DNA from: Peptoniphilus ovalis
Lineage (GTDB): Bacteria > Bacillota > Clostridia > Tissierellales > Peptoniphilaceae
Direction: 5' to 3'
Assembly: GCF_018919265.1 (NCBI RefSeq)
Contig: NZ_JAHLQO010000001.1
Coordinates: 434,001-498,000, forward strand
Length of the DNA: 64,000 bases
Position 1 is the stretch's first letter. The number at the start of each line of letters is the position of its first letter. The notes below the pieces were generated by a model. That model did no database searches. It was given only the letters and a program-made list of their open reading frames with translations, and was not told where the DNA came from. Shown piece by piece: positions 3,367 through 57,359 of the stretch. A program made the position numbers and the translations under genes.

Positions 3367-4545
3367 ATGGATATTAAAAATTTAATCGAAAAGAACAAAG
3401 ACTATATACTTGAAATGAGAAGATATTTTCACAAGAACCCAGAGCTATCCTTTGAAGAACACGAAACTACAAAGAAAATAGCAGAAGAGCTTGATAAAAT
3501 GGGAATAAAATATGAAATTCCTACTGAAGAGCCAAAGACTGGTGTTATTGGAGTTATCGAAGGGGCAAAACCAGGAAAGACTGTTGCACTTCGTGCAGAT
3601 ATTGACGCATTAAATGTTACAGAACAAAATGATGTTGAATACAAATCTGTTAATGAAGGAAAGATGCACGCTTGTGGTCATGACACTCACATTTCAATGC
3701 TTCTTGGAGCTGCAAAAATTTTAAATGAAGTTAAAGATGAACTTTGTGGAAAAGTTTATTTAATCTTCCAACCAGCAGAAGAAGTTGGTCTTGGTGCAAA
3801 ATATATGATTAGACAAGGAAATTGGTTTGAAGAAACTGATTCAATTTATGGATCACATATTTGGGTTGGACTTGATGCAGGAAAAATTTCCCTTGAAGCA
3901 GGAGATAGAATGGCTGCTGCAGATATGTTCTCAATTAAAATCCACGGCAAATCTGGTCACGGATCTCTACCAAATGAAACAGTAGATGCAGTAGTTGTAG
4001 GGTCTGCAGTAGTTCAAGCACTTCAACAACTTGTATCAAGAAATTATTCTCCACTTGATTCTGTAACAGTTACAATTGGATCATTCCACAGTGGAAACAG
4101 ATTTAACATCATTGCTGGAGAAGCAGAAATGACTGGTACAAATAGATATTTCTCAAGAGAAATTGGTGCAAGAATCGAAGAAGATATGAATAGAGTTATC
4201 AAGGGAGTTTGCGATGCTTATGGTGCAACTTATGAACTTGATTACACTTACATCTTAGGACCAACAATTAATGATGAAAAAGCATCAGAAATAGCAATTA
4301 AAGCACTTGAAAAATTTGCAGGACCAGATGCACACTCTACAATGCAAAAGACAACTGGTGGAGAAGACTTCTCTTATTATCTAGAAGAAAAACCAGGATG
4401 TTTCGGATTTGTAGGATGTAGAAATCCAGAAGTTGGAGCAGAATACCCACATCACAACGAAAGATTTAACGTAGATGAAACAGTACTTGCAAATGGTGCA
4501 GGAATGTATGCACAATATGCAATTGACTTTTTAAATGAAAATTAA
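3367..4545 (+). CDS. M20 family amidohydrolase (N-acyl-amino acid hydrolase type)
   Basis: Predicted cytosolic metallo-amidohydrolase that releases amino acids from N-acyl or similar conjugates (HipO/IAA-amino acid hydrolase group). The 392 residues include the metal-binding HACGHDTH (101-108) and FQPAEE (134-139) motifs, a dimerisation domain, and the late His in PHHNERF. It is the second gene of the operon with the transporter at 2137, preceded by AAGAGGGAT. The operon ends in a hairpin just downstream. Substrate is not resolvable. Confidence 0.92.
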   Translation: MDIKNLIEKNKDYILEMRRYFHKNPELSFEEHETTKKIAEELDKMGIKYEIPTEEPKTGVIGVIEGAKPGKTVALRADIDALNVTEQNDVEYKSVNEGKMHACGHDTHISMLLGAAKILNEVKDELCGKVYLIFQPAEEVGLGAKYMIRQGNWFEETDSIYGSHIWVGLDAGKISLEAGDRMAAADMFSIKIHGKSGHGSLPNETVDAVVVGSAVVQALQQLVSRNYSPLDSVTVTIGSFHSGNRFNIIAGEAEMTGTNRYFSREIGARIEEDMNRVIKGVCDAYGATYELDYTYILGPTINDEKASEIAIKALEKFAGPDAHSTMQKTTGGEDFSYYLEEKPGCFGFVGCRNPEVGAEYPHHNERFNVDETVLANGAGMYAQYAIDFLNEN

Positions 4546-4553
4546 TTAGATTA

Positions 4554-4581
4554 AAGACTTGGAGTGGTCCAAGTCTTTTTT
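4554..4581 (+). terminator. Terminator of transporter/amidohydrolase operon
   Basis: AAGACTTGGA and TCCAAGTCTT flank a short loop and are followed by a run of T. It lies 9 bases after the amidohydrolase stop. Confidence 0.85.
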
Positions 4582-4591
4582 ATTCAAAAAT

Positions 4592-4617
4592 ATAGACGAC
4601 CACTTGGGTCGTCCTTT
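4592..4617 (-). terminator. Terminator of pckA
   Basis: GACGACC and GGTCGTC form a stem with a 5-base loop directly after the pckA stop. The minus-strand tail is only moderately T-rich and the plus-strand side is followed by TTTTT, so it may work in both directions. Confidence 0.6.
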
Positions 4618-6249
4618 TTAAATTCTATAAAAATAATCTCTAAATTCTTCTAATGCATATTCTGGAAGTTCGTCAAATTCAGAAAGGTTGTCAAAGAATT
4701 CAAGTCTTGTTCTAAAGGATTTTTCTAGTTTTTCCCTGTATAAATCATAAACAGGCAATTCATAACCTTCTACTTCAAGATATGAAAAGTCTTTTATTTC
4801 AAACAAATCTTTAAACTCTGCATTATCATCAATCACTTTTTCAAGAAGTGAGAAAGTAATTTCCTTCGGTATGTCTTTTCCAAAGTAATCTCCAGAATTT
4901 ATAATGTAGCAATCAACTCCGTCTTTAAATAATTCTAAAAATTTATTAAAATCATCAGCCAATGGATAAGTTCTAAAAGGATTGGCATAAGGCTCAACAA
5001 CAAGCTTTGTAAAGTCGTATCCCTTCTTTAGATTTTCTGCAGAACTTCTCTTAGTAATAAGAGATGCGCCAAGAAGTGCAGCCATTATTGGATTTTCAAT
5101 TTTAACAAGTGGCGGAAAAACTGGATCCTTCATTATCCAGCAAATTGCATCAATTTTATCATCAAGTCTGTTTACTCTATTTTTTGACCACAATTTAGAT
5201 TTAATTGCTCGTCCATTTCCATTTCTAATATCTTCAGTCACAGCTACTATATTGCCATCTTCATCCATAGTTGCTCCTACATTTTGCATACTCAAAAGAA
5301 ATTTGTTGTCAGGACTGTTTGGCGGATAATTTTGTGTCTTGTCAAAATATGATGGCTCAAGTGCAATGGAGTATTTGTCCTTGGAATTAATTATAAAGGC
5401 ATCGTCATGTAAAATTTTTATATCGTATTTATCCTCGTGCTTATGATGAGTGATAGTTGATTTGCCAGAGCCAGAAAGTCCAAATACAGAAAGTGTGAAT
5501 GGATTTTTATCTTCTCTATAGAAAGTTTTAATTCCGCCATGGCAAGAGGCAAAGCCATTTCTATTTGCAATAGACCATGCAAGAGTAAGTGTGCCCTTCT
5601 TGTGCTCGCCAAAATATTTTAAGCCAAGTAGTGCTAATGTGTTGTTTTGAGAATCGAAATATGCTATTCCATTTGGATAATTTTCGTTTTTCCATTGTGG
5701 GTCAGAAAAAACAATTATGTCAGCCTCGTCATATTTTTTAGAATTTTTATACATTTCTTTAATCTCATTATTAATTGGTTGAAAATTTAATAGCCAATTG
5801 TATAAAATATTTTCTTCGCCTTCTGGAATTAAAAGATGAGCCTTGACACAAAAGTCTTTATCAAGACCTACAACAGACTCTGCATAAAGCATTTTTTTAA
5901 ATCTAGTATCATATACAGCATCCATTACTACCTTGTTAAGTGCGTCATCTTCGTTGTCGTTATTATTTGATATGTATCTAGCAGAAGCTGTTCTACCAGT
6001 AGTAGCTCCATCATTAAATATAATTACTTTTGATCCTTTTTCAAGTCCAATTTTTTCTGGTTCAAAAATTTCTCTACTTGTAATAATTGCACCAGGAGAA
6101 TTTTTAGCAATCTCATAAGCTTCTTTAAGTGTATTTATTTTCTTAACATTATTTCCATAAAAAGGAGTTTCAACAATAGTTCTAAGTCTAGAAAATTGAT
6201 TTTTTCCCTTTCTAATACCATCTAAATTTGTTCTGCCTCTAGTAGACAT
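4618..6249 (-). CDS. pckA: Phosphoenolpyruvate carboxykinase (ATP), divergent
   Basis: Interconverts oxaloacetate plus ATP with phosphoenolpyruvate, CO2 and ADP in the cytosol. The 543 residues contain the P-loop GLSGSGKS (257-264; the usual form is GLSGTGKT). The metal-site region includes GEHKKG, CHGG and HDDAF, and a C-terminal PVFPPLVKIENPIMAALLG stretch matches the family. Length is normal, but the N-terminal half differs from textbook enzymes. The start follows GGGAGG. In a scavenger of amino acids it could run either anaplerotically or for gluconeogenesis. Confidence 0.88.
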   Translation of the reverse strand: MSTRGRTNLDGIRKGKNQFSRLRTIVETPFYGNNVKKINTLKEAYEIAKNSPGAIITSREIFEPEKIGLEKGSKVIIFNDGATTGRTASARYISNNNDNEDDALNKVVMDAVYDTRFKKMLYAESVVGLDKDFCVKAHLLIPEGEENILYNWLLNFQPINNEIKEMYKNSKKYDEADIIVFSDPQWKNENYPNGIAYFDSQNNTLALLGLKYFGEHKKGTLTLAWSIANRNGFASCHGGIKTFYREDKNPFTLSVFGLSGSGKSTITHHKHEDKYDIKILHDDAFIINSKDKYSIALEPSYFDKTQNYPPNSPDNKFLLSMQNVGATMDEDGNIVAVTEDIRNGNGRAIKSKLWSKNRVNRLDDKIDAICWIMKDPVFPPLVKIENPIMAALLGASLITKRSSAENLKKGYDFTKLVVEPYANPFRTYPLADDFNKFLELFKDGVDCYIINSGDYFGKDIPKEITFSLLEKVIDDNAEFKDLFEIKDFSYLEVEGYELPVYDLYREKLEKSFRTRLEFFDNLSEFDELPEYALEEFRDYFYRI

Positions 6250-14134: not shown

Positions 14135-14686
14135 ATGGATAAGAGACTTTTAGACTGGCTAATACAAATAAGAACAGATACGCTAAATAGATATATGATA
14201 GTGATAACTCATCTTGGAACAGGTGGAGCACTATGGGTGTTTACTGCATTTATATTATTTTATTTGGGCTTTAGAGTAGAAAGTATAAATATTGTCCTTG
14301 CACTTATGTTTAATGGAATAATTTGCAATCTCTTATTAAAAAATATTTTAAAAAGAAAAAGACCTTCATGGATAAATAAAGTTGAACTTCTAATTAAAAA
14401 TCCAACAGACTTTTCCTTTCCATCAGGTCATGCATCATCATCCTTTGCAGCAGCAGTGACAGTTTTATATTATTTCCAAGGAATGGGAGTAGTGTTTATT
14501 GTAGTAGCCTTTTTAATAGCAATATCTAGAATATATCACTTCGTTCACTATCCAAGCGATGTAATCATAGGAGCAATCCTTGGAATAATAATAGCAATAG
14601 TAACAAAAAATTTATACGACGATTATATCTTAGAATTTTTAAGGACAAATGCAGGTTTTCTATTTAGACCTTTCCCTAAGTTCTGA
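14135..14686 (+). CDS. PAP2-family membrane phosphatase
   Basis: A 183-residue membrane phosphatase with about five helices and all three acid phosphatase signature blocks: KNILKRKRP (69-77), PSGH (96-99) and SR(x6)H(x3)D (Arg132, His138, Asp142). Such enzymes dephosphorylate undecaprenyl pyrophosphate or phosphatidyl lipids at the outer face of the membrane. The ribosome site AAAGGGG precedes the ATG. Its 3' end overlaps that of tadA on the other strand by 27 bases. Lipid specificity is not resolvable. Confidence 0.88.
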   Translation: MDKRLLDWLIQIRTDTLNRYMIVITHLGTGGALWVFTAFILFYLGFRVESINIVLALMFNGIICNLLLKNILKRKRPSWINKVELLIKNPTDFSFPSGHASSSFAAAVTVLYYFQGMGVVFIVVAFLIAISRIYHFVHYPSDVIIGAILGIIIAIVTKNLYDDYILEFLRTNAGFLFRPFPKF

Positions 14687-15112
14687 GAAAAAATTTGAAA
14701 TTAAACTTGAGCATTCATCTTCTAAGATAGAACCTTTGTAATTAATTTTGTGATTGGTGAATAGATTTTCAATATTTTGATGGCTTTTGACAGCACCGAA
14801 TCTTTTATTGCTCGCACCAAAATATAAATTAGAAATTCTTGCGTGTAGTATTGCACCAACACACATTAGACAAGGCTCAAGAGTGATGTAGATATCAGAA
14901 CCTTCAAGATGATATGAATTTAAATTTTTAGAGGCCATATTTATTGCCAATATCTCAGCATGAGCAATTGGTGAGTGTAGAGCCTCCTTTTTATTGTAGC
15001 CAATGCCAATTATTTTTTTGTTCCTTACGATAACTGCACCAATGGGCACATCGTGAGTTTCAAGAGATTTCTTAGCAATTTCAATTGCTTTTTTCATGTA
15101 CTTAATATCCAT
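14660..15112 (-). CDS. tadA: tRNA adenosine(34) deaminase
   Basis: Converts adenosine 34 to inosine in tRNA-Arg(ACG), allowing wobble reading. The 150 residues hold the zinc site His51-Ala-Glu53, with Glu53 as the proton shuttle, and Cys81/Cys84 in EPCLMCVGA. Length is typical. It is a single gene converging with and overlapping the PAP2 gene, so the two transcripts may interfere. Cytidine deaminases of the same fold are the main alternative, but the PCLMCxGA context favours TadA. Confidence 0.92.
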   Translation of the reverse strand: MDIKYMKKAIEIAKKSLETHDVPIGAVIVRNKKIIGIGYNKKEALHSPIAHAEILAINMASKNLNSYHLEGSDIYITLEPCLMCVGAILHARISNLYFGASNKRFGAVKSHQNIENLFTNHKINYKGSILEDECSSLISNFFSELRERSK

Positions 15113-15151
15113 GATTACATTATAACATTAGAAAAAATTAGAGGAGACAAA

Positions 15152-15343
15152 ATGAAAAAATTCTTTAAAATACTAATATTCTTACTCATTGCACTTAATA
15201 TTGTCATTACAATCTCAGCTTATATCAATAAATCTCCCTACAACAGCATGCCTTGGTATAGCCTTCCAGTGCTTCTTTTTAAAATCTCTGTAGTTGTTTT
15301 AATAGTTTTAATAATCGTCTACAAATTTATAGGAAACAAATAA
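15152..15343 (+). CDS. Small two-helix membrane protein, unknown
   Basis: A 63-residue protein with one hydrophobic N-terminal helix (about 4-24), a short polar loop (NKSPYNSMPWYS) and a second helix (about 35-58). The ATG at 15152 follows GAGGAGAC; an upstream in-frame extension runs into tadA and lacks a ribosome site. I do not recognise it. It stands alone between tadA and degV. Confidence 0.6.
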   Translation: MKKFFKILIFLLIALNIVITISAYINKSPYNSMPWYSLPVLLFKISVVVLIVLIIVYKFIGNK

Positions 15344-15419
15344 ACATATAAAATTAATGAAAAAAAGAACTTTATGTTATAATATTTTATATATGATTTA
15401 CATATAGATGGGGGAAACG

Positions 15420-16301
15420 ATGAATTTTAAAATATTATCTGATTCTTCTTGCGACTTAGACAATAAGACAATAGAGGAAATTGGTATTGATATAATAAAT
15501 TTAAAAAATATAGACGAAAACAACGAAGAACTTCCTGATGATTTTTCTAATCAAGATTTGTATAGAGAAATGAGGGAAGGGAAATTTTTTAAAACAAGCC
15601 AAGTAACAGCTTATGACTACCAAGTTAAATTGGAAGAAATGGCAAAATGTGGAAGCAACATAATTGTTTTGGCACTTTCAAGTGGACTTAGTGGTACATA
15701 TCAAAATGCTTACATGGCAGCAAGAAAAGTATCAGAGAAATACAAAGATATAAAAATCGAAGTAATAGATTCACTTGCCGCATCAGTTGGATTTGGATTA
15801 ATCACTTATTACACAGCACTAGCAGCAAAAAACGGAATGGACTTTGAAAAGACTGTTGAGTTTGCAAAATATCTTGTAGCAAACACTGCTCATATCTTTA
15901 CAGTTTTTGATTTAAAATACCTTTATCAAGGGGGAAGAGTTTCAAAGACTAAGGCAAAAATTTCAAGCGTGCTAAATATAATTCCAATCTTAGAAGTGGA
16001 TGATGATGGGAAATTATATGTATCAGAAGTAATTAGAGGAAAGAACAAAGCTTTTAAGAAAATGATAGAAATAATTTCAGAAAAATCAACAGCATCAGGA
16101 GTTGATTTTGTTTTTCCAGTGCATGGAGATGACAAAAAGATTTTAGATCCATTTATTGAAAGACTTGAAGAAAAGGGATTTAAAAATCACAAGTCTTTTG
16201 AAATTGGAAGAACAATAGCTTGCCATGTTGGACCAGATATGTGCGGCATGGGGTATTTAAAAGAAGATATAAAGGAAGAATTTAGAAAATATATAGTTTG
16301 A
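15420..16301 (+). CDS. DegV family fatty acid-binding protein
   Basis: A 293-residue cytosolic protein of the DegV family, which binds a long-chain fatty acid and in some Firmicutes acts as FakB, presenting it to the kinase FakA. The N-terminal SDSSCDL, the FKTSQ segment, SSGLSGTYQNA and the GGRVSK segment are conserved in the family. ATG 15420 follows GGGGGAA. No fakA gene is in the window. The role in exogenous fatty acid use is inferred from family knowledge. Confidence 0.9.
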   Translation: MNFKILSDSSCDLDNKTIEEIGIDIINLKNIDENNEELPDDFSNQDLYREMREGKFFKTSQVTAYDYQVKLEEMAKCGSNIIVLALSSGLSGTYQNAYMAARKVSEKYKDIKIEVIDSLAASVGFGLITYYTALAAKNGMDFEKTVEFAKYLVANTAHIFTVFDLKYLYQGGRVSKTKAKISSVLNIIPILEVDDDGKLYVSEVIRGKNKAFKKMIEIISEKSTASGVDFVFPVHGDDKKILDPFIERLEEKGFKNHKSFEIGRTIACHVGPDMCGMGYLKEDIKEEFRKYIV

Positions 16302-47601: not shown

Positions 47602-47643
47602 CAGTACATAAAAATTTTTAAGTAAAAAAATATGGAGGATGAA

Positions 47644-47865
47644 ATGAATTTAGAAAAATTACAATCAATTATTAGTTCAAACTTTGGAATTGATAAGGAA
47701 GAAATTAAATTAGAATCAAATTTACAAGATGATTTAGGTCTTGACTCTCTTGATGCAGTTGAGCTTTCCATGGCTATTGAAGAAGAAGCTGGGATTGAAA
47801 TTGCTGATGATGATTTCCAAAATTTAAAGACAGTTGACGACTTACTAAAGTTTACAAATAAATAA
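47644..47865 (+). CDS. acpP: Acyl carrier protein
   Basis: A 73-residue acidic carrier. Ser35 in GLDSLDAVEL takes the 4'-phosphopantetheine arm that holds growing acyl chains. ATG 47644 follows GGAGG. It is the first gene of the 10-kb fatty acid operon; accB begins two bases after its stop. Confidence 0.95.
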   Translation: MNLEKLQSIISSNFGIDKEEIKLESNLQDDLGLDSLDAVELSMAIEEEAGIEIADDDFQNLKTVDDLLKFTNK

Positions 47866-47866
47866 G

Positions 47867-48313
47867 ATGGAAAAATATTTTGAATTAACTTCCAAATTAA
47901 TAAAGGCTTTAGAAAATTCAAAAATCAATCATTTAGATATTAGCTTTGAAGGTTTTGCTCTTACTCTTGATAAAAGTATTTCCAATGAAAATCCAAATCA
48001 CACATCTTTCAAAAACATTGACATAAATACAGAAAACTCATTGGAAAATAATGAAGAAGATAATGAAAATGTAGAAATCTTTAAAGCTCCACTACTAGGC
48101 ATTTTTTACAAGGCTAAGGATCCAGAGTCCGAGGCCTTTGCCGAAGTTGGAAAAACACTAAAAAAGGGAGACACAATGTGCATCATAGAAGCTATGAAGA
48201 TGATGAACGAAGTCAAAGCCCCCTACGACTGCAAGATAGTTGAATGTCTTGTTCAAAATGAAGAATTTGTTGAATACAATAAAGCTATTTTTAAATTGGA
48301 GAAAATATGTTAA
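47867..48313 (+). CDS. accB: Biotin carboxyl carrier protein of acetyl-CoA carboxylase
   Basis: A 148-residue BCCP. A helical N-terminal region binds AccC, and an acidic linker (about 52-70) leads to the biotinyl domain with Lys111 in EAMKMMNEVKAP as the biotin site. The start is one base after the acpP stop with no clear ribosome site of its own, suggesting coupled translation. It overlaps accC by seven bases. Confidence 0.94.
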   Translation: MEKYFELTSKLIKALENSKINHLDISFEGFALTLDKSISNENPNHTSFKNIDINTENSLENNEEDNENVEIFKAPLLGIFYKAKDPESEAFAEVGKTLKKGDTMCIIEAMKMMNEVKAPYDCKIVECLVQNEEFVEYNKAIFKLEKIC

Positions 48314-49683
48314 AAAAAGTTTTAATAGCAAATCGTGGCGAGTGTGCTCTTTCAATTTTTAGAACTGCTAGAGAACTTGGCATTAAGACAACTATTGTCT
48401 ATTCAAAGGAAGATGAAGACCAGGCGGTTGTTTATCTTGCAGATGAGGCAATTTGCATTGGTGATAGATTTCCAAAAGACACTTACTTAAACATAAACGC
48501 ACTTATTACTGCGGCACTATCAAGTGGCTGCGATAGCGTACATCCAGGATATGGATTTTTATCAGAATCCTATGAATTTGCCAAGGCCGTAGAAGATGCG
48601 GGCCTTGTTTTTATTGGGCCTAAATCAGACCTTATTAGAAAAATGTCTGATAAAATCGAAGCTAAAAAAATTATGAAAGAGGCAGAGGTGCCAATAGCTG
48701 ATGGAATTGAAATAAATGATAAAAATTTAAAAGACATTAAAAAAATTGCAGAAGAAATTGGCTATCCAGTTCTACTTAAAGCTAGGAATGGCGGCGGTGG
48801 AAAGGGAATGAGAAGAGTTGATTCATCGAAAAACTTAATGGATTTAATAGAGCTTACAAAAAGTGAAGCCAAGTCTTCCTTTGGCAGTTCTGAAATTTTC
48901 ATTGAAAAATTAATTGAGAGACCAAGACATATTGAGGTGCAAATTCTTTCTGATGGAAAAAATGCAATTCATCTCTTCGAAAGAGAATGCAGTATTCAGA
49001 GAAATAATCAAAAGATAATTGAAGAGGCACCTTGCAATTTTATCTCAGATGATTTAAAAAATAGACTTTATGATGCAAGTATTAAATGCGTTAAAGCGAC
49101 AAACTACAAAGGTGCAGGCACTGTTGAGTACTTAGTTGATCAAAATGAAAATTTTTATTTTATGGAGATGAACACAAGACTTCAAGTTGAGCATGCTGTC
49201 ACAGAGATGATTACTGGTGTAGACATAATAAAAGAGCAGTTTAGAATCGCATCAGGGCTTGGACTTTCTATTAATCAAGAAGATGTGAAAATAGATGGGC
49301 ATGCAATGGAAGTTCGTGTAAATGCAGTTGATACTTACGAAAACTTCAGACCATCAGCAGGAGAGATTACATTTTTCTTAGAGCCTGGTGGAATGGACAC
49401 GAGATTTGAATCAAGTATTTATAAGGGAATTAATGTGCCTATTTATTACGACTCAATGATTGGAAAAATTATTGTAAAGGACAGAACCCGACTTTCTGCA
49501 ATAAAGAAAATGAGAAGGGCAATTGAAGAAACTGTAATCGAAGGAATCGAAACCAATCTTGGATTTTGCTATGCAATTTTATTTGATTTCGATTTTATCA
49601 GGGGAAATATTCACACAAACTTTATAAATAATAAGGAAACAGTCCTCATAGAGAGAATGAGGGAGGTAGTAGATTATGAATAA
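48307..49683 (+). CDS. accC: Biotin carboxylase subunit of acetyl-CoA carboxylase
   Basis: A 458-residue ATP-grasp enzyme that carboxylates BCCP-biotin. It has IANRGECALSIFRTARELG at the N-terminus, the Gly-rich ATP loop RNGGGGKGMRRV, HIEVQIL, EREC, QRNNQKIIEEAP and MEMNTRLQVEHAVTE. Length is typical. It overlaps accB and accD by seven to eight bases, so expression of the subunits is tightly coupled. Confidence 0.96.
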   Translation: MLKKVLIANRGECALSIFRTARELGIKTTIVYSKEDEDQAVVYLADEAICIGDRFPKDTYLNINALITAALSSGCDSVHPGYGFLSESYEFAKAVEDAGLVFIGPKSDLIRKMSDKIEAKKIMKEAEVPIADGIEINDKNLKDIKKIAEEIGYPVLLKARNGGGGKGMRRVDSSKNLMDLIELTKSEAKSSFGSSEIFIEKLIERPRHIEVQILSDGKNAIHLFERECSIQRNNQKIIEEAPCNFISDDLKNRLYDASIKCVKATNYKGAGTVEYLVDQNENFYFMEMNTRLQVEHAVTEMITGVDIIKEQFRIASGLGLSINQEDVKIDGHAMEVRVNAVDTYENFRPSAGEITFFLEPGGMDTRFESSIYKGINVPIYYDSMIGKIIVKDRTRLSAIKKMRRAIEETVIEGIETNLGFCYAILFDFDFIRGNIHTNFINNKETVLIERMREVVDYE

Positions 49684-50512
49684 AAAGGATCTTACAAAGA
49701 GAAAAAGTCTTCTTAAATCCATAAGAAATCTTGCAAATATTACAAAAACAAAAGCAAAAGAAGAAAAACTTATTTGTAAATCTTGTAAGAGAGAAGTGAG
49801 TGGAAATAATTTACACATTTGTCCCTATTGTGACAGCTATATGCCAATGTCTGGAGAAGATAGATTTGAGCTGCTCTTAGACAGGGGATATAGCTCTATT
49901 AATTTTGGCAGCAAGCATCTAAATCCCATAAATTTTCCAAATTATAAAAATAAAAAGATTAAAGGACTTGATGAGGCCATCTCCATTGCAAGAGGAACTA
50001 TTGAAGGTTCAAATGTAGTTATTGCAGTTTTGGAACATGACTACATGATGGGAAGTATGGGAACTTATGTGGGCGAAGAGCTTACTAAGATGATTGAATA
50101 CGCAAACAGAAAGAGACTTCCAATAATTATAGTTTCTGTAAGTGGTGGAGCAAGAATGCAAGAGGGAATTTTTTCTCTAATGCAAATGGCAAAAGTTTCT
50201 CTTGCACTTTCAAACTTTTCTGAAAGCGGAGGACTTTATATAAGTCTTATGACAAATCCTACAATGGGTGGAGTCAGCGCAAGCTTTGCATCGGCTGGAG
50301 ATATTAATTTAGCAGAGCCAGGTGCAAGGATAGGATTTGCTGGGCCAAGGGTTATAAAAGAAACTCTTCACGAAGAACTTCCTAAGGGTTTTCAAAGTGC
50401 AGAAAAGTTACTTGAGTTTGGATTTTTAGACATGATTGTTGAAAGGAAGAATCAGAAAGAAGTTTTGGGAAAGATTTTAAAACTTCACAGAGGTGACAAT
50501 GGACGCATATAA
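49676..50512 (+). CDS. accD: Carboxyltransferase beta subunit of acetyl-CoA carboxylase
   Basis: A 278-residue beta subunit moving CO2 from biotin to acetyl-CoA. An N-terminal zinc ribbon (Cys34, Cys37, Cys49, Cys52) is followed by the crotonase-like core with VSGGARMQEG and NPTMGGVSASFA. It overlaps accC by eight bases and accA by 14. Normal length. Confidence 0.95.
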   Translation: MNKKDLTKRKSLLKSIRNLANITKTKAKEEKLICKSCKREVSGNNLHICPYCDSYMPMSGEDRFELLLDRGYSSINFGSKHLNPINFPNYKNKKIKGLDEAISIARGTIEGSNVVIAVLEHDYMMGSMGTYVGEELTKMIEYANRKRLPIIIVSVSGGARMQEGIFSLMQMAKVSLALSNFSESGGLYISLMTNPTMGGVSASFASAGDINLAEPGARIGFAGPRVIKETLHEELPKGFQSAEKLLEFGFLDMIVERKNQKEVLGKILKLHRGDNGRI

Positions 50513-51278
50513 AAAAGTTATAAACGCAAGGTCAAGTGAAAGAACTCGAGCAAAGGAAATAATCGAAAAAATCTTTGATGAATATATTTATCTAAAGGGC
50601 GACAGAGCTTATGGAGATTCTGAAGCAATAATTGGCGGCATTGGAAGTTTATCTAATGGAATTAAAAACCACAGAGTTACTTTTATTGGAATTCAAAAAG
50701 GTGCTGATGCTGAGGAAAGCCTGAGAACTAATTTTGGAATGCCTAATCCTCACGATTACAGAAAAGCAATTAGACTTATGAAACAAGCAGAAAAATTTAA
50801 AAGACCTGTCATAACTTTTGTAGACACACCTGGAGCATTTCCTGGAGTTGAAGCAGAACAGCGTGGTCAACATCAGCTTATTTCAGATTCATTAATTACA
50901 ATGGCGGGACTAAAGGTTCCTACAATTGCTTTTATAATTGGCGAAGGTGGATCAGGTGGAGCATTGGCTCTTGCACTTGCGAATAAAGTTTACATGGCAA
51001 GTGGTGCAGTTTATTCCATTCTTTCTCCTGAAGGATTTGCCACAATTTTATACAAAGATGTAAATAAAAAGTATGATGCAGCTGAGCTTATGAGACTTAC
51101 TGCAGATAATCTCTATGAAGATGGAATAATAGATGGAATTGTAAAAGAAAATGACAACAAAATTGACCTTAGCGATTTAAAGAGAATTATTTTTGAATCA
51201 CTTGATGAATATAGAATTTATTCGCCAACAAAGATTATAAGTGACAGGTATAAAAGGTTTAGAAGGATTGGTGTTTAA
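50499..51278 (+). CDS. accA: Carboxyltransferase alpha subunit of acetyl-CoA carboxylase
   Basis: A 259-residue alpha subunit, shorter than the roughly 320 of enteric homologues because the N-terminal helical extension is small. It includes DTPGAFPGVEAEQRGQ, IGEGGSGGALALALANKVYM and the YSILSPEGFATILYKD segment. ATG 50499 follows AGAGGTG; a GTG at 50493 is less likely. It ends one base into the fabH start. Confidence 0.94.
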   Translation: MDAYKKVINARSSERTRAKEIIEKIFDEYIYLKGDRAYGDSEAIIGGIGSLSNGIKNHRVTFIGIQKGADAEESLRTNFGMPNPHDYRKAIRLMKQAEKFKRPVITFVDTPGAFPGVEAEQRGQHQLISDSLITMAGLKVPTIAFIIGEGGSGGALALALANKVYMASGAVYSILSPEGFATILYKDVNKKYDAAELMRLTADNLYEDGIIDGIVKENDNKIDLSDLKRIIFESLDEYRIYSPTKIISDRYKRFRRIGV

Positions 51279-52171
51279 TGGGTTTAAAATTTATAGAATC
51301 AAAAAATTTAGACTTAGAAATTAAAAGAGATAATCTTTATTTCGAAGAAAGACTGGACACCAGTTCAGATTGGATAGAGAAAAGAACAGGAATTAAGACG
51401 AGATTTTTCACAGAACTTGACACTGAAGAAATGACAAAAAAACTTGTGAAAAATTTTAAAAGTGATATAGAAAATTTAGATTTAATAATCTGTGCAAGCT
51501 TTTCAACTAAGAGAAGAATGCCATCACTTTCATCAATTGCAAGAGAAACAATTGGTGCAAATGAAAATGTACTGTGCCTTGACATAAATCTTGCCTGTGC
51601 TGGATTTTCTGCGGCGCTAATTTTGGCAGAGAAATATCTAGAAAAGGGAAGAAAGGCACTTATATTTGCATGCGAAAAAATTTCAGATTACATGGACTTT
51701 TCTGACCGATCAACTGCAATTTTATTTGGAGATGGAGCAGCGGGAGTCATAGTTGAGAAAAATGAAAAATTATTTATTTCTGATACTAAATCATTAAATC
51801 ACGAAAATACATTAAATCTCTACGAAGGTGAGACTATAACTATGGAAGGCAAAAAAGTATACCGCTTTGCAGTAGAAGAAGTCCCAAAATCCCTAAAAAA
51901 ACTCATGTGCGAAAGTGATTTAAAACCAGATGAAATAGATAAAATAATTCTTCATCAGGCAAATTATAGAATTATAAATTCAGTACTTAAAAACTTAGAA
52001 ATTGATGAAGATAAAAGCTTTTCAAATTTAGATGTATATGGAAATACATCGGCTGCAACTATACCAATAGTTATTGCAGAAAATTTCGAGAAGATTAAAG
52101 ATGGAGAAATACTTTTAATGTCAGGATTTGGCGCAGGCCTTTCTGTTGTAAGTATTTTAATGGAGTGTTGA
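51278..52171 (+). CDS. fabH: Beta-ketoacyl-ACP synthase III
   Basis: Starts fatty acid chains by joining an acyl-CoA primer with malonyl-ACP. Triad Cys107 (LACAGF), His226 (ILHQANYR) and Asn256 (YGNTSAAT). At 297 residues it is about 20 shorter than most FabH, mainly near the N-terminus. Its primer choice decides straight versus branched chains, which cannot be read here. ATG overlaps the accA stop by one base. Confidence 0.93.
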   Translation: MGLKFIESKNLDLEIKRDNLYFEERLDTSSDWIEKRTGIKTRFFTELDTEEMTKKLVKNFKSDIENLDLIICASFSTKRRMPSLSSIARETIGANENVLCLDINLACAGFSAALILAEKYLEKGRKALIFACEKISDYMDFSDRSTAILFGDGAAGVIVEKNEKLFISDTKSLNHENTLNLYEGETITMEGKKVYRFAVEEVPKSLKKLMCESDLKPDEIDKIILHQANYRIINSVLKNLEIDEDKSFSNLDVYGNTSAATIPIVIAENFEKIKDGEILLMSGFGAGLSVVSILMEC

Positions 52172-52172
52172 G

Positions 52173-53099
52173 ATGAATTTAGAAAAATTATTAGGAATAA
52201 AATATCCCATAATTCAGGGCGGAATGGCTCATATTGCAACAAGTGAACTTGCAGCTGCAGTAAGTGAAGCTGGTGGACTTGGAGTAATTGGATCAGGCGG
52301 CATGAGTGCTGAAGATTTAAGAGATAACATAAGGGACTTAAGAGCAAAAACCAAAAAACCTTTTGCAGTAAATCTAATGATGTTAAGACCAGACACTGAT
52401 GATTTAGTAAAAGTAATTTTAGAAGAAGATGTAAAAATTCTAACTATTGGTGCTGGAAGCTACGGAAAGTATGCTGATATTTTTAAGGAAAAGGAAATAA
52501 AAGTAATCCCAGTTATAGCATCGCCAGTGCAAATAAAAAGATACGAAGATTACAATCCAACAGCATATATTGCTGAAGGAATGGAAGCAGGTGGTCATAT
52601 TGGACAAATGACTACAATAACTCTTATCCCTGAAGCTGTTAATGCAACTGATAGACCAATAATTGCAGCAGGAGGAATTGCATCAGGTAGAGAAATCTTT
52701 GCAGCAGAAATTTTAGGTGCAAGTGGAGTGCAAATTGGAACAGGATTTTTATTTACAGAGGAATGCCCAGCTCATGAAAATTATAAAAATATCCTTTTAA
52801 AATCAACTTCATCAAAGGTAACAGTTATTGGAAATAATAATGTGCCAATGAGACTTCTTAAAAATAAAATGACAAGAGATTATAAAAATCTTGAAAAATC
52901 AAATTCCTTAGAAGAATTAGAATATTTTACAATAGGAAGACTTCGTAAAGCTGTAAAAGAAGGCGATGTAGTTGAAGGCTCTGTAATGACAGGACTTGAC
53001 GTGGGAAGATTTAATGAAATTGTGCCAGTAAAAGAATTTATCGAAAGAATCTTTAGGGAATACGATGAGGTTAAAAATGGCTATAAAAATCAGGGATAA
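52173..53099 (+). CDS. fabK: FMN-dependent enoyl-ACP reductase II
   Basis: Reduces trans-2-enoyl-ACP with NAD(P)H, the final elongation step, using FMN in a TIM barrel. The 308 residues include PIIQGGMAHIATSELAAAVS, EGMEAGGHIG with the catalytic-region His, AAGGIASGREIFAAEILGA and GVQIGTGFLFTEE. It substitutes for FabI, which is absent. It overlaps the next, related gene by 23 bases. Confidence 0.94.
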   Translation: MNLEKLLGIKYPIIQGGMAHIATSELAAAVSEAGGLGVIGSGGMSAEDLRDNIRDLRAKTKKPFAVNLMMLRPDTDDLVKVILEEDVKILTIGAGSYGKYADIFKEKEIKVIPVIASPVQIKRYEDYNPTAYIAEGMEAGGHIGQMTTITLIPEAVNATDRPIIAAGGIASGREIFAAEILGASGVQIGTGFLFTEECPAHENYKNILLKSTSSKVTVIGNNNVPMRLLKNKMTRDYKNLEKSNSLEELEYFTIGRLRKAVKEGDVVEGSVMTGLDVGRFNEIVPVKEFIERIFREYDEVKNGYKNQG

Positions 53100-54096
53100 A
53101 TCTATAGACATCCCCATAATTCAAGGTGCCATGGCAATAGGGATTTCCAATGGAAACCTTGCAGGTGCAGTTGCAAATAGAGGCGGCATAGGAACTCTTA
53201 CTATGGTTAACCCAGGATACAATGAAGAAGATTTTTACAAAAATTTTATCGAGGCAAATAAGAGGGCCTTTACAAAAGAAGTAAAAATTGCAAGAGAAAA
53301 ATCTCACGGCAATGGTCTAATTCTTACGAATTTAATGAATGTAGTTGAACACAAGGAAGAATACTTAGAATTTTTAGACACTCAAGACATTGACGGAGTC
53401 ATAATGGGAGCAGGACTTCCACTTGACCTTCCAAAATATATTTCAGAAGATAAATTAATTGCTCCAATTGTTTCATCGAAAAGAGCCCTTAGGCTAATTA
53501 TGAAAAAATGGCAAGCTTATAAAAGAAAGCCCGATCTTATAGTTTTCGAAGGACCTGAAGCTGGAGGCCATCTTGGATTTAAAGTTGAGGAGCTTGATAT
53601 GGATATATTCGCAGAACTTCGTGAGATTTTAGATTTTGCAAAAGATATCCCAGTATTTATCGGCGGAGGTTTTGGAACTCCCGAAAAAATAAAAAAGGCC
53701 CTAGAGCATGGAGCAACTGGAGTTCAAATTGGAACTGGATTTTTATTTACAGAAGAATCAGGACTTGAAAGGAATGCAAAGATTGAGTTTTTAAAAAATA
53801 AAGACAAGTATGAAAACACAATTTTAAAAAGTCCCGTTGGACTTCCAGCAAGAGGATTATTAAATAATTTTGTCAAGAAGGCAAGAGAAGTTAATATTCC
53901 TCCAAAGAGATGTATGGCTTGCATTAAGACATGTAAAAGACGTGATACAAATTATTGCATTAACGAAGCTCTAATTAATGCAGTTAGGGGAAATATTGAG
54001 GAAGGACTTTTCTTTTCAGGAACTGATATAAAAAATATTGATGAATTAAGAACTGTTGATGAATACATTGATTATTTAAGGAGTGCTTATGAGTAA
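53077..54096 (+). CDS. FabK-like flavoprotein with four-cysteine motif, candidate FabX-type enzyme
   Basis: A 339-residue FMN TIM-barrel protein of the nitronate monooxygenase/FabK family: PIIQGAMAIGISNG, FEGPEAGGHLG, IGGGFGTPEKIKKAL and GVQIGTGFLFTEES. Unlike FabK it has a C-terminal segment with Cys279, Cys282, Cys286 and Cys294 (pattern CX2CX3CX7C), suited to an iron-sulfur cluster. H. pylori FabX, a related enzyme, has such a cluster and makes cis-unsaturated acyl-ACP. The operon lacks FabA, FabM and FabN, so a similar role is plausible. ATG 53077 follows TGAGG. Confidence 0.85.
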   Translation: MAIKIRDKSIDIPIIQGAMAIGISNGNLAGAVANRGGIGTLTMVNPGYNEEDFYKNFIEANKRAFTKEVKIAREKSHGNGLILTNLMNVVEHKEEYLEFLDTQDIDGVIMGAGLPLDLPKYISEDKLIAPIVSSKRALRLIMKKWQAYKRKPDLIVFEGPEAGGHLGFKVEELDMDIFAELREILDFAKDIPVFIGGGFGTPEKIKKALEHGATGVQIGTGFLFTEESGLERNAKIEFLKNKDKYENTILKSPVGLPARGLLNNFVKKAREVNIPPKRCMACIKTCKRRDTNYCINEALINAVRGNIEEGLFFSGTDIKNIDELRTVDEYIDYLRSAYE

Positions 54097-54994
54097 AGTA
54101 GCTGTAATTTTTGGAGGACAAGGATCCCAATACGAAAATTTGGGAAAAGTTTTTATTGAAAAAAATGTTGCACCAGAAATTTATGGAGAAATCAAAGAAT
54201 ATGAAGAAATAATAAAAAATGGAAGTTTTGAAGAAATTTCCATGACTAAAAATCTTCAGCCAATAATGCTTGCTTATCAGCTTGCGTCATTAAAAATTGT
54301 AAGAGAAAAGCTTGATATAGATGCAACTTGTGGCTTAAGTCTTGGAGAATACGCATCACTTGTAGCAGCTAATGTAATTTCAGCAGAAGATGCACTAAAA
54401 CTTATTAAAATTCGCGGCAAATTAATGCAGGAATGCGGAGAAAAAATCAATTCAAAAATGCTTGCCATTTTGAACAAAAACGAAGATGAAGTCAAAGAAA
54501 TTATAAAAAATTCAGAAATTTCTAATATCTTTATCTCCAATATAAATTCGCCAAAACAAATCCTTATTGCAGGAGAAGAAAAAGATATTGACGCATTTAA
54601 AGTTTATGCTAAAGAAAATAAAATCAGAAATATCGAGATGAAAGTATCAGGTGCATTTCACACAAAATACATGGGTGAAGCTGCAATAGAATACAAAAAT
54701 TATCTTGAAGAGATAAGTTTCAGTGAGCCTAAAATAGATTATTATCTAAACTTAACTGGAAAAAAATATAGCGGCGAAGATTTAAAATTAGTATTATCGA
54801 AGCATATTGAAAATCCCGTTAGGCTTTATGATTGTCTTGAAAACATAGTAAATTCAGGAGTGAACAAAATTATAGAAATTGGACCAAGTGATGTGCTTTC
54901 AAAAATTATTGCCAAGAATTTTAAAAATATAGAAATTATTTCTCTTAAAAATGAAGAAGAAGTAATAGAATTTGGAGAAAATTATGGAAAATAA
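54089..54994 (+). CDS. fabD: Malonyl-CoA:ACP transacylase
   Basis: Loads malonyl groups onto ACP. The 301 residues hold FGGQGSQ at the N-terminus, catalytic Ser84 in GLSLGEY and His191 in GAFHTKYM. The usual GHSLGE reads GLSLGE here; Leu replaces a conserved but non-catalytic His. ATG 54089 follows AAGGAGTG and overlaps the preceding stop by eight bases. Confidence 0.92.
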   Translation: MSKVAVIFGGQGSQYENLGKVFIEKNVAPEIYGEIKEYEEIIKNGSFEEISMTKNLQPIMLAYQLASLKIVREKLDIDATCGLSLGEYASLVAANVISAEDALKLIKIRGKLMQECGEKINSKMLAILNKNEDEVKEIIKNSEISNIFISNINSPKQILIAGEEKDIDAFKVYAKENKIRNIEMKVSGAFHTKYMGEAAIEYKNYLEEISFSEPKIDYYLNLTGKKYSGEDLKLVLSKHIENPVRLYDCLENIVNSGVNKIIEIGPSDVLSKIIAKNFKNIEIISLKNEEEVIEFGENYGK

Positions 54995-55709
54995 AAACTA
55001 CGCTTTTATTAGTGGTGCAAGTGGAGGGATTGGCGTCTTTATAGCAGAAGAGTTGAAAAAAGACTACAATTTAATTCTTCACACTAGAAGCAAAAAAGAT
55101 GTACTTGAAAAATTAAAAGATGAATATAAAGATATTGATGTGAAAATAGTAGAAGGCGATTTGTCAAAATTTGAAGACTGCCAAAAAATCTTTGATGAAG
55201 TAAAAGATTTAGATGTAGAAGTTCTTGTAAACAATGCTGGAATAACAAAGGATAATTTAATTTTTAGAATGACTGATGAAGATTTTACAAAAGTTATAGA
55301 AACAAATTTAAATTCTGCATTTTATCTTTCAAAACTTTTTGCAAGACCAATGATGAAAAAAAGAAAGGGAAAAATTATAAATATCTCTTCAATAGTTGGC
55401 ATTAAAGGAAATCCAGGCCAGGCAAATTATGCAGCATCAAAGGCGGGACTTATTGCTCTAACAAAGACTATGGCAAAAGAACTTGGCGGCAAAAATGTAT
55501 TAGTTAATGCAGTTGCACCAGGTTTTATTGAGACAAAGATGACAGAAGAATTATCAGATAGTGTGAAAGAAGAAATGCTAAAAGGTATTCCGCTTAAAAG
55601 ATATGGAAGTCCAGTTGAAGTTGCAAAGGTCATAAGATTTTTAGCAAGTGATGATGCAAGTTATATTAATGGTCAAGTGATTTCTGTAGATGGAGGTTTA
55701 AATACATGA
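54984..55709 (+). CDS. fabG: Beta-ketoacyl-ACP reductase
   Basis: A 241-residue short-chain dehydrogenase reducing 3-ketoacyl-ACP with NADPH. It has the SGASGGIG cofactor loop, LVNNAGIT, the Ser in ISSIVG, the YAASK catalytic pair and INGQVISVDGG. ATG 54984 follows GGAG within the fabD 3' end; the overlap is 11 bases. It overlaps fabF by four bases. Confidence 0.95.
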   Translation: MENKNYAFISGASGGIGVFIAEELKKDYNLILHTRSKKDVLEKLKDEYKDIDVKIVEGDLSKFEDCQKIFDEVKDLDVEVLVNNAGITKDNLIFRMTDEDFTKVIETNLNSAFYLSKLFARPMMKKRKGKIINISSIVGIKGNPGQANYAASKAGLIALTKTMAKELGGKNVLVNAVAPGFIETKMTEELSDSVKEEMLKGIPLKRYGSPVEVAKVIRFLASDDASYINGQVISVDGGLNT

Positions 55710-56923
55710 GAGTAGTAGTTACAGGAGTAGGTTTTATAACTCCCATTGGAGAAACTAAAGAAGAATTAATAAATTCTATGAAAAATAAAAAATGTGGGAT
55801 TAAAGAAATCACTCATTATGATATAATAAACCGTGAGGTTAAACTAGCTGGCGAGTTAGAAAATTATGATGCCAGCAAATATTTCAATCGAAAAGAAATT
55901 AATAGATTAGATAAGGTGAACCAATACAGCTTAATAGCAGCAAGAAAAGCAAGTGTAGATGCAGGACTAGATGGATTGGATTACGACAAAAGACGCACAG
56001 CAGTCTACATAACTTCTGGAATTGGAGGACTAGAAAGTATCGAGGTTGACCACACTAGAGGGCAAAAAAGAGGATTCGATAAACTTAGCCCATACTTTAT
56101 CACAAAGGCAATTATTAACTCAGTAGCTGCCAATGTGGCAATTGAATTAGGAGCAAAGGGAGCATGTCTATCTCACGTAACTGCATGTGCTTCGGCTACT
56201 AATGCAATTGGAGAAGCTTATAGGGCAATTAAGGACGGATACCAAGACATAATATATTGTGGGGGAAGTGAAGCTTCAATAACTGAGCTTGGTGTAGGAG
56301 GATTTACATCAATGAAGGCACTTTCTACATCAACAGATATTAATAGAGCATCCATTCCCTTTGACAAAGACAGAGACGGATTTGTCATGGGAGAAGGAGC
56401 TGGAGTAATAGTTCTTGAATCACTTGAAAGTGCAGAAAAAAGAGGCGCAAAAATCTTAGCAGAAATAACTGGCTATGGGGTTAATTGTGATGCATATCAC
56501 ATAACATCTCCAAGTCCATCAGCTGAGATGGCAACTCTTGCAATAGAAGATGCACTAAAAGATGCTAAGCTAAGTCCAGAAGAAATAGATTATATAAATG
56601 CTCATGGAACATCTACAAATCTTAACGACAAATACGAGACTATTGCCATTAAAAAAGTTTTTGGCGATAGAGATGTCCTCGTATCATCATCTAAATCGCA
56701 AATTGGACATTTATTAGGTGCGTCAGGAGCAGTTGAGTGCATTATGACTATACTTGCAATGAACAATGGATTTTTACCACCTCTAATTAATTACAAAAAT
56801 AGAGATCCTGAATGTGATCTAAACTTTGTAACAGACACAGAAGAAAGAAAGATAAATTATTTCTTAAAGAATTCACTGGGATTTGGTGGACACAATGCCA
56901 GTCTAGTTTTTAGGAGTTTTTAA
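55706..56923 (+). CDS. fabF: Beta-ketoacyl-ACP synthase II
   Basis: The elongating condensing enzyme, 405 residues. Catalytic Cys161 (TACASATNA), His300 (NAHGTSTNLND) and His335 (SQIGHLLGASG). As the only elongating synthase in the operon it must extend both saturated and any unsaturated intermediates. It overlaps fabG by four bases and ends one base before fabZ. Confidence 0.96.
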   Translation: MRVVVTGVGFITPIGETKEELINSMKNKKCGIKEITHYDIINREVKLAGELENYDASKYFNRKEINRLDKVNQYSLIAARKASVDAGLDGLDYDKRRTAVYITSGIGGLESIEVDHTRGQKRGFDKLSPYFITKAIINSVAANVAIELGAKGACLSHVTACASATNAIGEAYRAIKDGYQDIIYCGGSEASITELGVGGFTSMKALSTSTDINRASIPFDKDRDGFVMGEGAGVIVLESLESAEKRGAKILAEITGYGVNCDAYHITSPSPSAEMATLAIEDALKDAKLSPEEIDYINAHGTSTNLNDKYETIAIKKVFGDRDVLVSSSKSQIGHLLGASGAVECIMTILAMNNGFLPPLINYKNRDPECDLNFVTDTEERKINYFLKNSLGFGGHNASLVFRSF

Positions 56924-56924
56924 T

Positions 56925-57359
56925 ATGGAACTTACTTTTGATGAAATAAAAGAAATATTGCCTCATAAATATCCATTTATAATGGTTGATAGAATAATAG
57001 AATTACAAAAAGATAAATATGCAGTGGGAATAAAATGCGTCTCTAATGGGGATTTTTATTTTCAAGGTCATTTCCCTCAGAAGGCTCTAATGCCAGGAGT
57101 ACTACAAATAGAGACAGTAGCACAAGTAGGAGCAACTTGTCTATTGTTAGAAAATAGGGATAAAATTGCAGTGCTTGCAGGAGTTAAAAGGGCGAGATTT
57201 TATAAAGAAGTTAGCCCAGGAGATGTCTTAAAAGTAAAATGTGAGATGATTAAAACAGTTAAAAATCTTGGATTCGCCGAAGGAATCATTACTCGTAAAA
57301 ATTCTGATGGCGAAGATGAAAGGGTTATGACTTGTGAGATTTCCTTTGCATTAGCTTAG
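56925..57359 (+). CDS. fabZ: 3-hydroxyacyl-ACP dehydratase
   Basis: A 144-residue hot-dog dehydratase. Catalytic His49 in GHFPQKALMPG and Glu63 in LQIETVAQ. It makes trans-2-enoyl-ACP. FabZ alone is not expected to isomerise to cis-3, which is why another route to unsaturated chains is needed if the organism makes them. The marR gene follows after nine bases. Confidence 0.95.
   Translation: MELTFDEIKEILPHKYPFIMVDRIIELQKDKYAVGIKCVSNGDFYFQGHFPQKALMPGVLQIETVAQVGATCLLLENRDKIAVLAGVKRARFYKEVSPGDVLKVKCEMIKTVKNLGFAEGIITRKNSDGEDERVMTCEISFALA

Follow-up and report, generated by a model that had tools for sequence, protein, structure and literature searches.

The window analysed here is a 64,000-nucleotide (nt) stretch of Peptoniphilus ovalis DNA (contig 1, positions 434001–498000) from a genome of 2.10 Mb in 14 contigs with a completeness of 99.6%; its host is presumed from its family to be a strict anaerobe. 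The window contains an unbroken type II fatty acid synthesis (FAS-II) operon with the gene order acpP-accB-accC-accD-accA-fabH-fabK-fabX-like-fabD-fabG-fabF-fabZ-MarR. The subject of this report is the fabX-like gene between fabK and fabD, which encodes a flavin mononucleotide (FMN) barrel protein of the nitronate monooxygenase (NMO) family with an inserted four-cysteine motif. The features of the locus are listed below (ACP, acyl carrier protein; ORF, open reading frame; TIM, triosephosphate isomerase).

47632..47865, + strand: acpP
47867..51278, + strand: accB, accC, accD and accA (acetyl-CoA carboxylase genes)
51278..52171, + strand: fabH
52173..53099, + strand: fabK, enoyl-ACP reductase II; TIGR03151 at 344.8 bits, below the 453 cut-off; overlaps the fabX-like gene
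53077..54096, + strand: fabX-like gene, an open ORF of 339 amino acids (FMN TIM-barrel, NMO family, four-Cys insert near the C-terminus)
53569..53571, + strand: codon of His165, which aligns with the catalytic His182 of Helicobacter pylori FabX
53911..53958, + strand: codons of Cys279, Cys282, Cys286 and Cys294 (CX2CX3CX7C)
54083..54994, + strand: fabD; TIGR00128 at 194.9 bits, below cut-off; its first nucleotides overlap the 3' end of the fabX-like gene
54972..55709, + strand: fabG
55706..56923, + strand: fabF, sole condensing enzyme of the FabF/FabB type in the operon
56925..57359, + strand: fabZ, the only FabA/FabZ-family gene detected in the genome
57369..57839, + strand: MarR-family regulator, FabT-like by family and position

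An alternative ATG of the fabX-like ORF lies 12 nt upstream, at 53065, and would extend the protein to 343 residues. Several genes of the operon, fabK among them, score below the NCBIfam equivalog cut-offs, and no competing family was found for any of them. The original prediction had placed a second FMN-barrel gene directly after fabK, with its four cysteines spaced as CX2CX3CX7C, in an operon with a single FabZ and a single FabF. The overlap of the two reading frames, the translation of 53077–54096 and the family matches agree with this description on each point.

The best matches of the fabX-like protein in the Protein Data Bank (PDB) are four sequences that align over nearly its full length with E ~8e-47. 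These entries (7e1q, 7e1r, 7e1s and 9lt5) are labelled 2-nitropropane dioxygenase, and we take them to be H. pylori FabX (HP0773). This identification is supported by 27 residues checked from the description of FabX in PMC8626469, all 27 of which fall on the expected letters. The two proteins are 32% identical over 329 aligned residues, below the arbitrary limit of 50% that PMC8626469 applied to FabX homologues. FabK entries match with E 1e-17 or weaker, and a profile built from 61 family sequences scores FabX at 361 bits and the best FabK at 176 bits. The closest characterised relative is thus FabX and not FabK, although FabK shares the FMN barrel and the catalytic His and its gene adjoins the fabX-like gene. 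Identity to the FabK of the same operon is 27%, and the FabK equivalog model TIGR03151 gives the fabX-like protein 101 bits against a cut-off of 453, which the FabK of the operon also misses. No FabX model surfaced in NCBIfam, where all 61 family members match the FabK model.

The protein also matches the Pfam NMO family at 140 bits, as would be expected of a nitronate monooxygenase that detoxifies nitroalkanes. That family includes FabK and FabX as well, however, and the PDB entries named nitronate monooxygenase are far weaker matches (E 6e-13 at best, mostly over ~125 residues). The putative nitroalkane dioxygenase 3bo9 matches over its full length, with E 1e-11. An O2-dependent detoxification would, moreover, be out of place among the fab genes of an anaerobe; we consider this function very improbable. 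The search scores and the trees described next led us to reject nitronate monooxygenase as well as a plain FabK.

A 117-row tree built by a quick method places 54 FabK rows in one group on a fully supported branch of length 1.26, and the fabX-like protein together with H. pylori FabX in one 43-row clade (Shimodaira–Hasegawa approximate likelihood-ratio test, SH-aLRT, of 100), with FabK outside. A more careful 50-row tree returns the FabK branch (1.49, fully supported) and a 32-row clade with both proteins at 100/100. H. pylori FabX is nested within a clade of mainly clostridial proteins. The trees are midpoint-rooted and leave a short subgroup of fabX-like proteins without a settled place relative to FabK; the family as a whole may be paraphyletic, and we infer the direction of descent. 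This short subgroup (CX2CX3CX4C; mostly ~315–340 residues; L103–L122, from genomes of the phylum) falls outside the FabX clade, lies between acpP and fabF of a fab operon in 11 of the 20 regions read and, to our knowledge, has no characterised member. Judged by its sequence relationships, ORF 53077–54096 is a real FabX-type gene of the short-loop kind, borne by a fab operon and derived from an anaerobe.

Like H. pylori FabX, the protein combines the NMO-family barrel and catalytic His with four cysteines at the position of the [4Fe-4S] cluster. Cys282, Cys286 and Cys294 align exactly with FabX Cys304, Cys308 and Cys320, and Cys279 is one residue off Cys300 because of its shorter spacing (CX2CX3CX7C versus CX3CX3CX11C). 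Cysteines modelled away from the FMN site would have spoken against the original prediction; the alignment puts them at the cluster positions of FabX. The four-Cys arrangement is found in all 62 FabX-type sequences of a survey set (hand-picked regions, the window included), in 29 of 29 further loci from the phylum (L074–L102, 14 of which repeat survey-set genomes) and in 80 of 80 loci from named genomes (the best 80 of 588). It is not a chance motif. Five spacings occur among the 62: CX2CX3CX7C (31), CX2CX3CX4C (20), CX3CX3CX7C (9), CX2CX4CX7C (1) and CX3CX3CX11C (1). As predicted, FabK lacks the motif (0 of 54 rows), a count that is partly circular because row L121 was classed as FabX-type solely for its cysteines and the others by BLAST score.

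The four-Cys stretch aligns where FabK has its C-terminal stretch, and in FabX it is described as replacing the NAD(P)H-binding part (PMC8626469). This bears on the possibility that the protein is a second enoyl-ACP reductase, which would reduce trans-2-enoyl-ACP with electrons passed through the cluster from a low-potential carrier and would serve as a partner or back-up of FabK. The barrel, the catalytic His and the position beside fabK are consistent with such a role; the four-Cys stretch in place of the FabK C-terminus and the closer relationship to FabX argue against it, and we regard it as unlikely.

Residues named in PMC8626469 were compared by alignment with the fabX-like protein. The catalytic His (His165, FabX His182) is kept in all FabX-type and FabK rows compared. 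Thirteen of the 20 FMN contacts are identical to those of FabX (G22, M24, I28, N99, I147, E175, G180, G220, G221, Q240, T243, F339 and G341), as are the phosphopantetheine contacts G127, S149 and G184 and the residues V49, I321 and L325. Neither L325 nor the cluster cysteines occur in any FabK row, and F339 occurs in 2 of 54. At the ACP-binding positions, basic residues are present at those of FabX K152, K159 and R160, with replacements at R164 and T130 that are considered below.

Among 120 genomes of the Peptoniphilaceae, 27 contain a full-length fabX-like gene (at least 40% identity; the window's own genome included), and one more (G048) has a fragment at a contig end. A FabZ-family gene is present in 32 of the 120, in one copy each, so that none of the 32 has a FabN-like second copy. 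The fabX-like gene occurs in 28 of the 32 FabZ-positive and in none of the 88 FabZ-negative genomes (Fisher p 2e-23, which overstates independence because the genomes are related, and with one of the 28 a fragment). Its absence from all 88 FabZ-negative relatives is a further point against nitroalkane detoxification. The gene lies directly 3' of fabK in all 20 family regions read and, by match coordinates, in the other six of six carriers. In the 20 operons read it overlaps fabK by 4 to 86 nt (longest start taken), and its junction with fabD ranges from a 22-nt overlap to a 4-nt gap. Since FabK adjoins it in all 26 other family carriers, there is no evident need for a second reductase.

Where FabK occurs without a fabX-like gene, 16 of the 19 regions fetched contain no fab operon, which indicates that the fabX-like gene tracks the pathway more closely than FabK does. 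These FabZ-negative family members have a lone FabK-like gene away from fab operons (L029–L034, L036–L039, L041, L042 and L044–L047). In G066 (L051, 8341–9278) fabK is split into two ORFs of 128 and 184 amino acids, suggesting a frameshift or a sequencing error, and the adjoining fabX-like gene is intact.

A fabM or fabN elsewhere in the P. ovalis genome would have counted against the original prediction; genome-wide family searches found neither, nor a fabA. They returned neither FabA nor a second FabZ, and no gene of the FA_desaturase (membrane desaturase) family. The single enoyl-CoA-hydratase (ECH)-family gene, a candidate FabM, lies between thiolase and 3-hydroxyacyl-CoA dehydrogenase genes (named from their translations); we rejected it as FabM because, from its place in this cluster, we take it to be a crotonase. 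In 27 family genomes tested (23 other carriers and the four exceptions discussed below), ECH matches are present in 16 and absent from 11. Nine of the 11 carry the fabX-like gene, corresponding to 9 of the 23 other carriers tested; FabM is excluded only for the P. ovalis genome and for those without any ECH match. The failure of these searches to turn up another source of unsaturated acids in P. ovalis is an additional argument against a second reductase. Cyclopropane synthase, an indirect sign of unsaturated lipids, was also sought and gave four matches only, all below cut-off.

Relatives outside the family were examined in a scan of named genomes, in which the query was led by a relative of the window protein and the best 80 of 588 confirmed loci were used; adding 40 hand-picked phylum regions gave a set of 120 loci, many of them cut by contig ends. 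At least two of six core fab genes lie beside the fabX-like gene in 26 of the 80 loci (15 with a narrower four-gene list) and in 42 of the 120. In Clostridium acidisoli and C. tyrobutyricum the gene comes first (X-fabT-fabH-..., where X is the fabX-like gene), in C. saudiense and C. sartagoforme it is divergent from the fab operon, and in Lachnospiraceae it follows accD or lies between fabZ and fabH. Other carriers include Dialister and metagenome-assembled genomes (MAGs) labelled Planctomycetota, Nitrospirae, Desulfomicrobium, Dehalococcoidia and others. In one Planctomycetota MAG (L246) the order is fabH-X-fabD-fabG-acpP-fabF, with X at the usual place of fabK and no fabK called on the locus. 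Another locus (L137, G268) has two near-identical copies ~10 kb apart (4068–5186 and 14470–15588).

A protein search of the phylum gave a match in 309 of 398 genomes, of which 198 (the window's included) reach E 1e-28 or better, a cut of our own choosing with a count derived from a hand-copied list of 111 weaker rows. Cysteines were read in 40 hand-picked regions (20 per size class) and 29 loci, together 55 distinct genomes of the 198. FabZ is present in 360 of the 398 genomes and is therefore too common for a useful association test. All 80 named relatives are 36–45% identical to H. pylori FabX and so miss the 50% limit; they include Roseburia, Blautia, Butyribacter intestini, Dialister and many Lachnospiraceae. 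FabX homologues are said to be rare in the healthy gut flora (PMC8626469; PMC12079444), a statement to be read with the 50% limit behind the count in PMC8626469. The gut relatives, such as Roseburia and Blautia, are FabX-type by sequence, and the same activity is putative for them.

An open-ended palindrome search upstream of fabX-like genes, made on loci without two core fab genes, found sites centred on TTTGANNNTCAAA. The exact sequence occurs upstream of 20 of 79 fab-unlinked and 8 of 42 fab-linked fabX-like genes, versus 4 of 732 other ORFs. Restricting the comparison to non-overlapping genes preceded by at least 60 nt of intergenic sequence gives 18 of 72 and 7 of 545 (Fisher 5e-13; discovery and testing of the motif drew on one set of loci, without correction for relatedness). 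Most fabX-like genes have no exact site. Typical sites read AGTTTGATTATCAAAGT, and the box fits the Streptococcus pneumoniae FabT palindrome, ANTTTGACTGTNAAATT (PMC8406281). Over 13 kb, the C. tyrobutyricum and C. acidisoli loci each have a single exact site, in front of the fabX-like gene, and among 20 Peptoniphilaceae regions exact sites occur in L062 only, where three lie just before acpP, two of them with the same TTTGACTGT core. Clostridial loci with TTTGANNNTCAAA within 250 nt upstream of the fabX-like gene are L111, L125, L132, L174, L178–L181, L184 and others. A FapR-type box showed little enrichment upstream of fab-unlinked genes (5 of 79 versus 18 of 600). The operator upstream of fab-unlinked genes ties the fabX-like gene to the fatty acid regulon even away from the operon, and it suggests that FabT-type control may not be confined to the groups from which it is described (streptococci, lactococci and enterococci).

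Considered together, these comparisons make it probable that the fabX-like gene encodes an enzyme of the FabX/UfaA type, which would make a cis-3 double bond without O2. Of the original prediction, the assignment to the FabX type has held, on the strength of the searches, the trees, the cluster and active-site residues, the operon position, the co-occurrence with FAS-II and the FabT-like operator in relatives. The function it proposed is putative, and published data for one related organism with the gene record no unsaturated acids.

A number of observations weigh against this assignment. Seven of the 20 FMN contacts differ from FabX, mostly by small or conservative changes, and the 12 acyl-chain neighbours named in PMC8626469 divide into five identical and seven different residues. 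Y277 is Leu here. T130 is replaced by Leu116 (Leu or Met in all 20 family relatives compared) and R164 by Ala147 (Lys or Arg in 17 of 20). As the R164A substitution cut the activity of H. pylori FabX ~80-fold (PMC8626469), the loss of R164 is a real point against full equivalence with FabX, although the ACP partner differs too. The window has no exact match to the FabT-like box, and its nine one-mismatch sites compare with a chance mean of 14.8. The fabX-like gene is absent from four of the FabZ-positive family genomes: G014 (with a weak FabZ match), G027, G056 (76% complete) and G065. No alternative route of unsaturation was found in these four, and they count against the necessity of the gene. 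In G065 fabK overlaps fabD by 13 nt (L043, 8499–8511) at the site that the gene occupies in members of the same genus, a clean natural loss from an otherwise complete FAS-II operon. Evidence from other organisms points the same way: H. pylori FabX requires O2 (PMC8626469), and clostridial unsaturated acids have been ascribed most probably to FabF (PMC6362236).

A counter-example is Microaceticoccus formicicus AMB_02T (G016; L064), a member of the Peptoniphilaceae that has the gene in its fab operon with the His and four cysteines present. The profile in Table 4 of PMC12079837 lists saturated, iso and anteiso acids and one 3-hydroxy acid for this organism, and no unsaturated acids. Perhaps the gene is not expressed under the conditions used; alternatively, the proposed function may be wrong for this branch. 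The same table gives C16:1 and C18:1 acids, aldehydes and acetals for Citroniella saccharovorans, and the published profiles of Anaerococcus prevotii are called contradictory by its genome paper (PMC3035230). The M. formicicus profile would suit a second reductase. It would also suit a FAS-linked flavoprotein dispensable for unsaturated acids and acting in some other acyl-ACP reaction (branched-chain or plasmalogen-related, or in control of FabK flux), a view that gains from the four FabZ-positive genomes without the gene and from the limited identity around the acyl chain. Nothing in the sequence suggests a reaction of this kind, and we give it a lower probability than a second reductase, itself unlikely.

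Three characterised proteins frame the comparison. H. pylori FabX uses O2 and occurs in a bacterium without FabK, whereas the fabX-like gene sits beside fabK in the fab operon of an anaerobe. Neisseria gonorrhoeae, the host of NGO1024 (UfaA), is a facultative anaerobe, unlike the presumed strict anaerobe that carries the fabX-like gene. NGO1024 is a FabX homologue linked to anaerobic unsaturated fatty acid synthesis, with an unknown electron acceptor (PMC11300592). The Fusobacterium nucleatum FabX (C4N14_08920) has the four cysteines, shares an operon with a hypothetical gene and comes from a host that also has FabK; at 50.8% identity it is closer to H. pylori FabX than the fabX-like protein is (PMC11091888). 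When overexpressed, it partially protects against a FabK inhibitor (PMC11091888). An enoyl reductase would have the same effect, and the result suits a second reductase as well.

We infer, rather than observe, the cofactors, substrate, reaction and electron acceptor of the putative FabX-type enzyme. It would accept a medium-chain acyl-ACP of C10 or perhaps C12, whose chain would thread between FMN and His165 toward the cluster, and would release cis-3-enoyl-ACP for elongation by the FabF of the operon. Two versions of the reaction can be considered. In the first, which would be redox-neutral overall, the enzyme would isomerise trans-2-enoyl-ACP from FabZ and compete at this branch point with its neighbour FabK; the cluster would then be structural or regulatory. 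Bloch's group reportedly found by clostridial labelling that decanoate fed omega-9 chains, which would favour this isomerase version. In the second, saturated acyl-ACP would be dehydrogenated as by H. pylori FabX, with electrons passing from FMN to the cluster and then to a carrier other than O2. H. pylori FabX dehydrogenates decanoyl-ACP, after which isomerisation is independent of oxygen; its FMN is reoxidised with O2, and the cluster serves as a temporary electron store (PMC8626469). Because O2 is no acceptor in a strict anaerobe, the anaerobic version would have to differ, either as a pure isomerase or through another acceptor. The isomerase version would be the more economical, given the position beside FabK in a cell that already makes trans-2-enoyl-ACP.

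Although labelling of clostridia gave rise to the first proposal of the anaerobic pathway, Zhu et al. (2009; PMC2700279) state that Clostridia had no identified enzyme dedicated to unsaturated fatty acids and that C. acetobutylicum uses 'a novel and unknown enzyme'. FabX and its cluster are published, and the general idea of a FabX-type enzyme in anaerobes is already in print: the title of a 2011 paper on the gonococcal homologue, cited in PMC11300592, speaks of anaerobes lacking FabA, and homologues above 50% identity were found in 1650 species, most of them living anaerobically (PMC8626469). A literature search that covered few subscription papers found neither a paper assigning the clostridial double-bond step to the FabX family nor operator evidence for the family. 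As a tentative and distinctly less secure proposal, the four-Cys NMO family (CX2CX3CX7C, CX3CX3CX7C and CX2CX3CX4C, at least three loop types) might be the enzyme, so far missing, that introduces the double bond in strictly anaerobic Clostridia and their relatives. It would act without O2 as a flavin/iron–sulfur trans-2 to cis-3 enoyl-ACP isomerase at the FabZ–FabK branch point, with H. pylori FabX as a derived, O2-using member. Position, co-occurrence and operator link this family to fatty acid synthesis in anaerobes, and its proposed role can be tested in laboratory strains.

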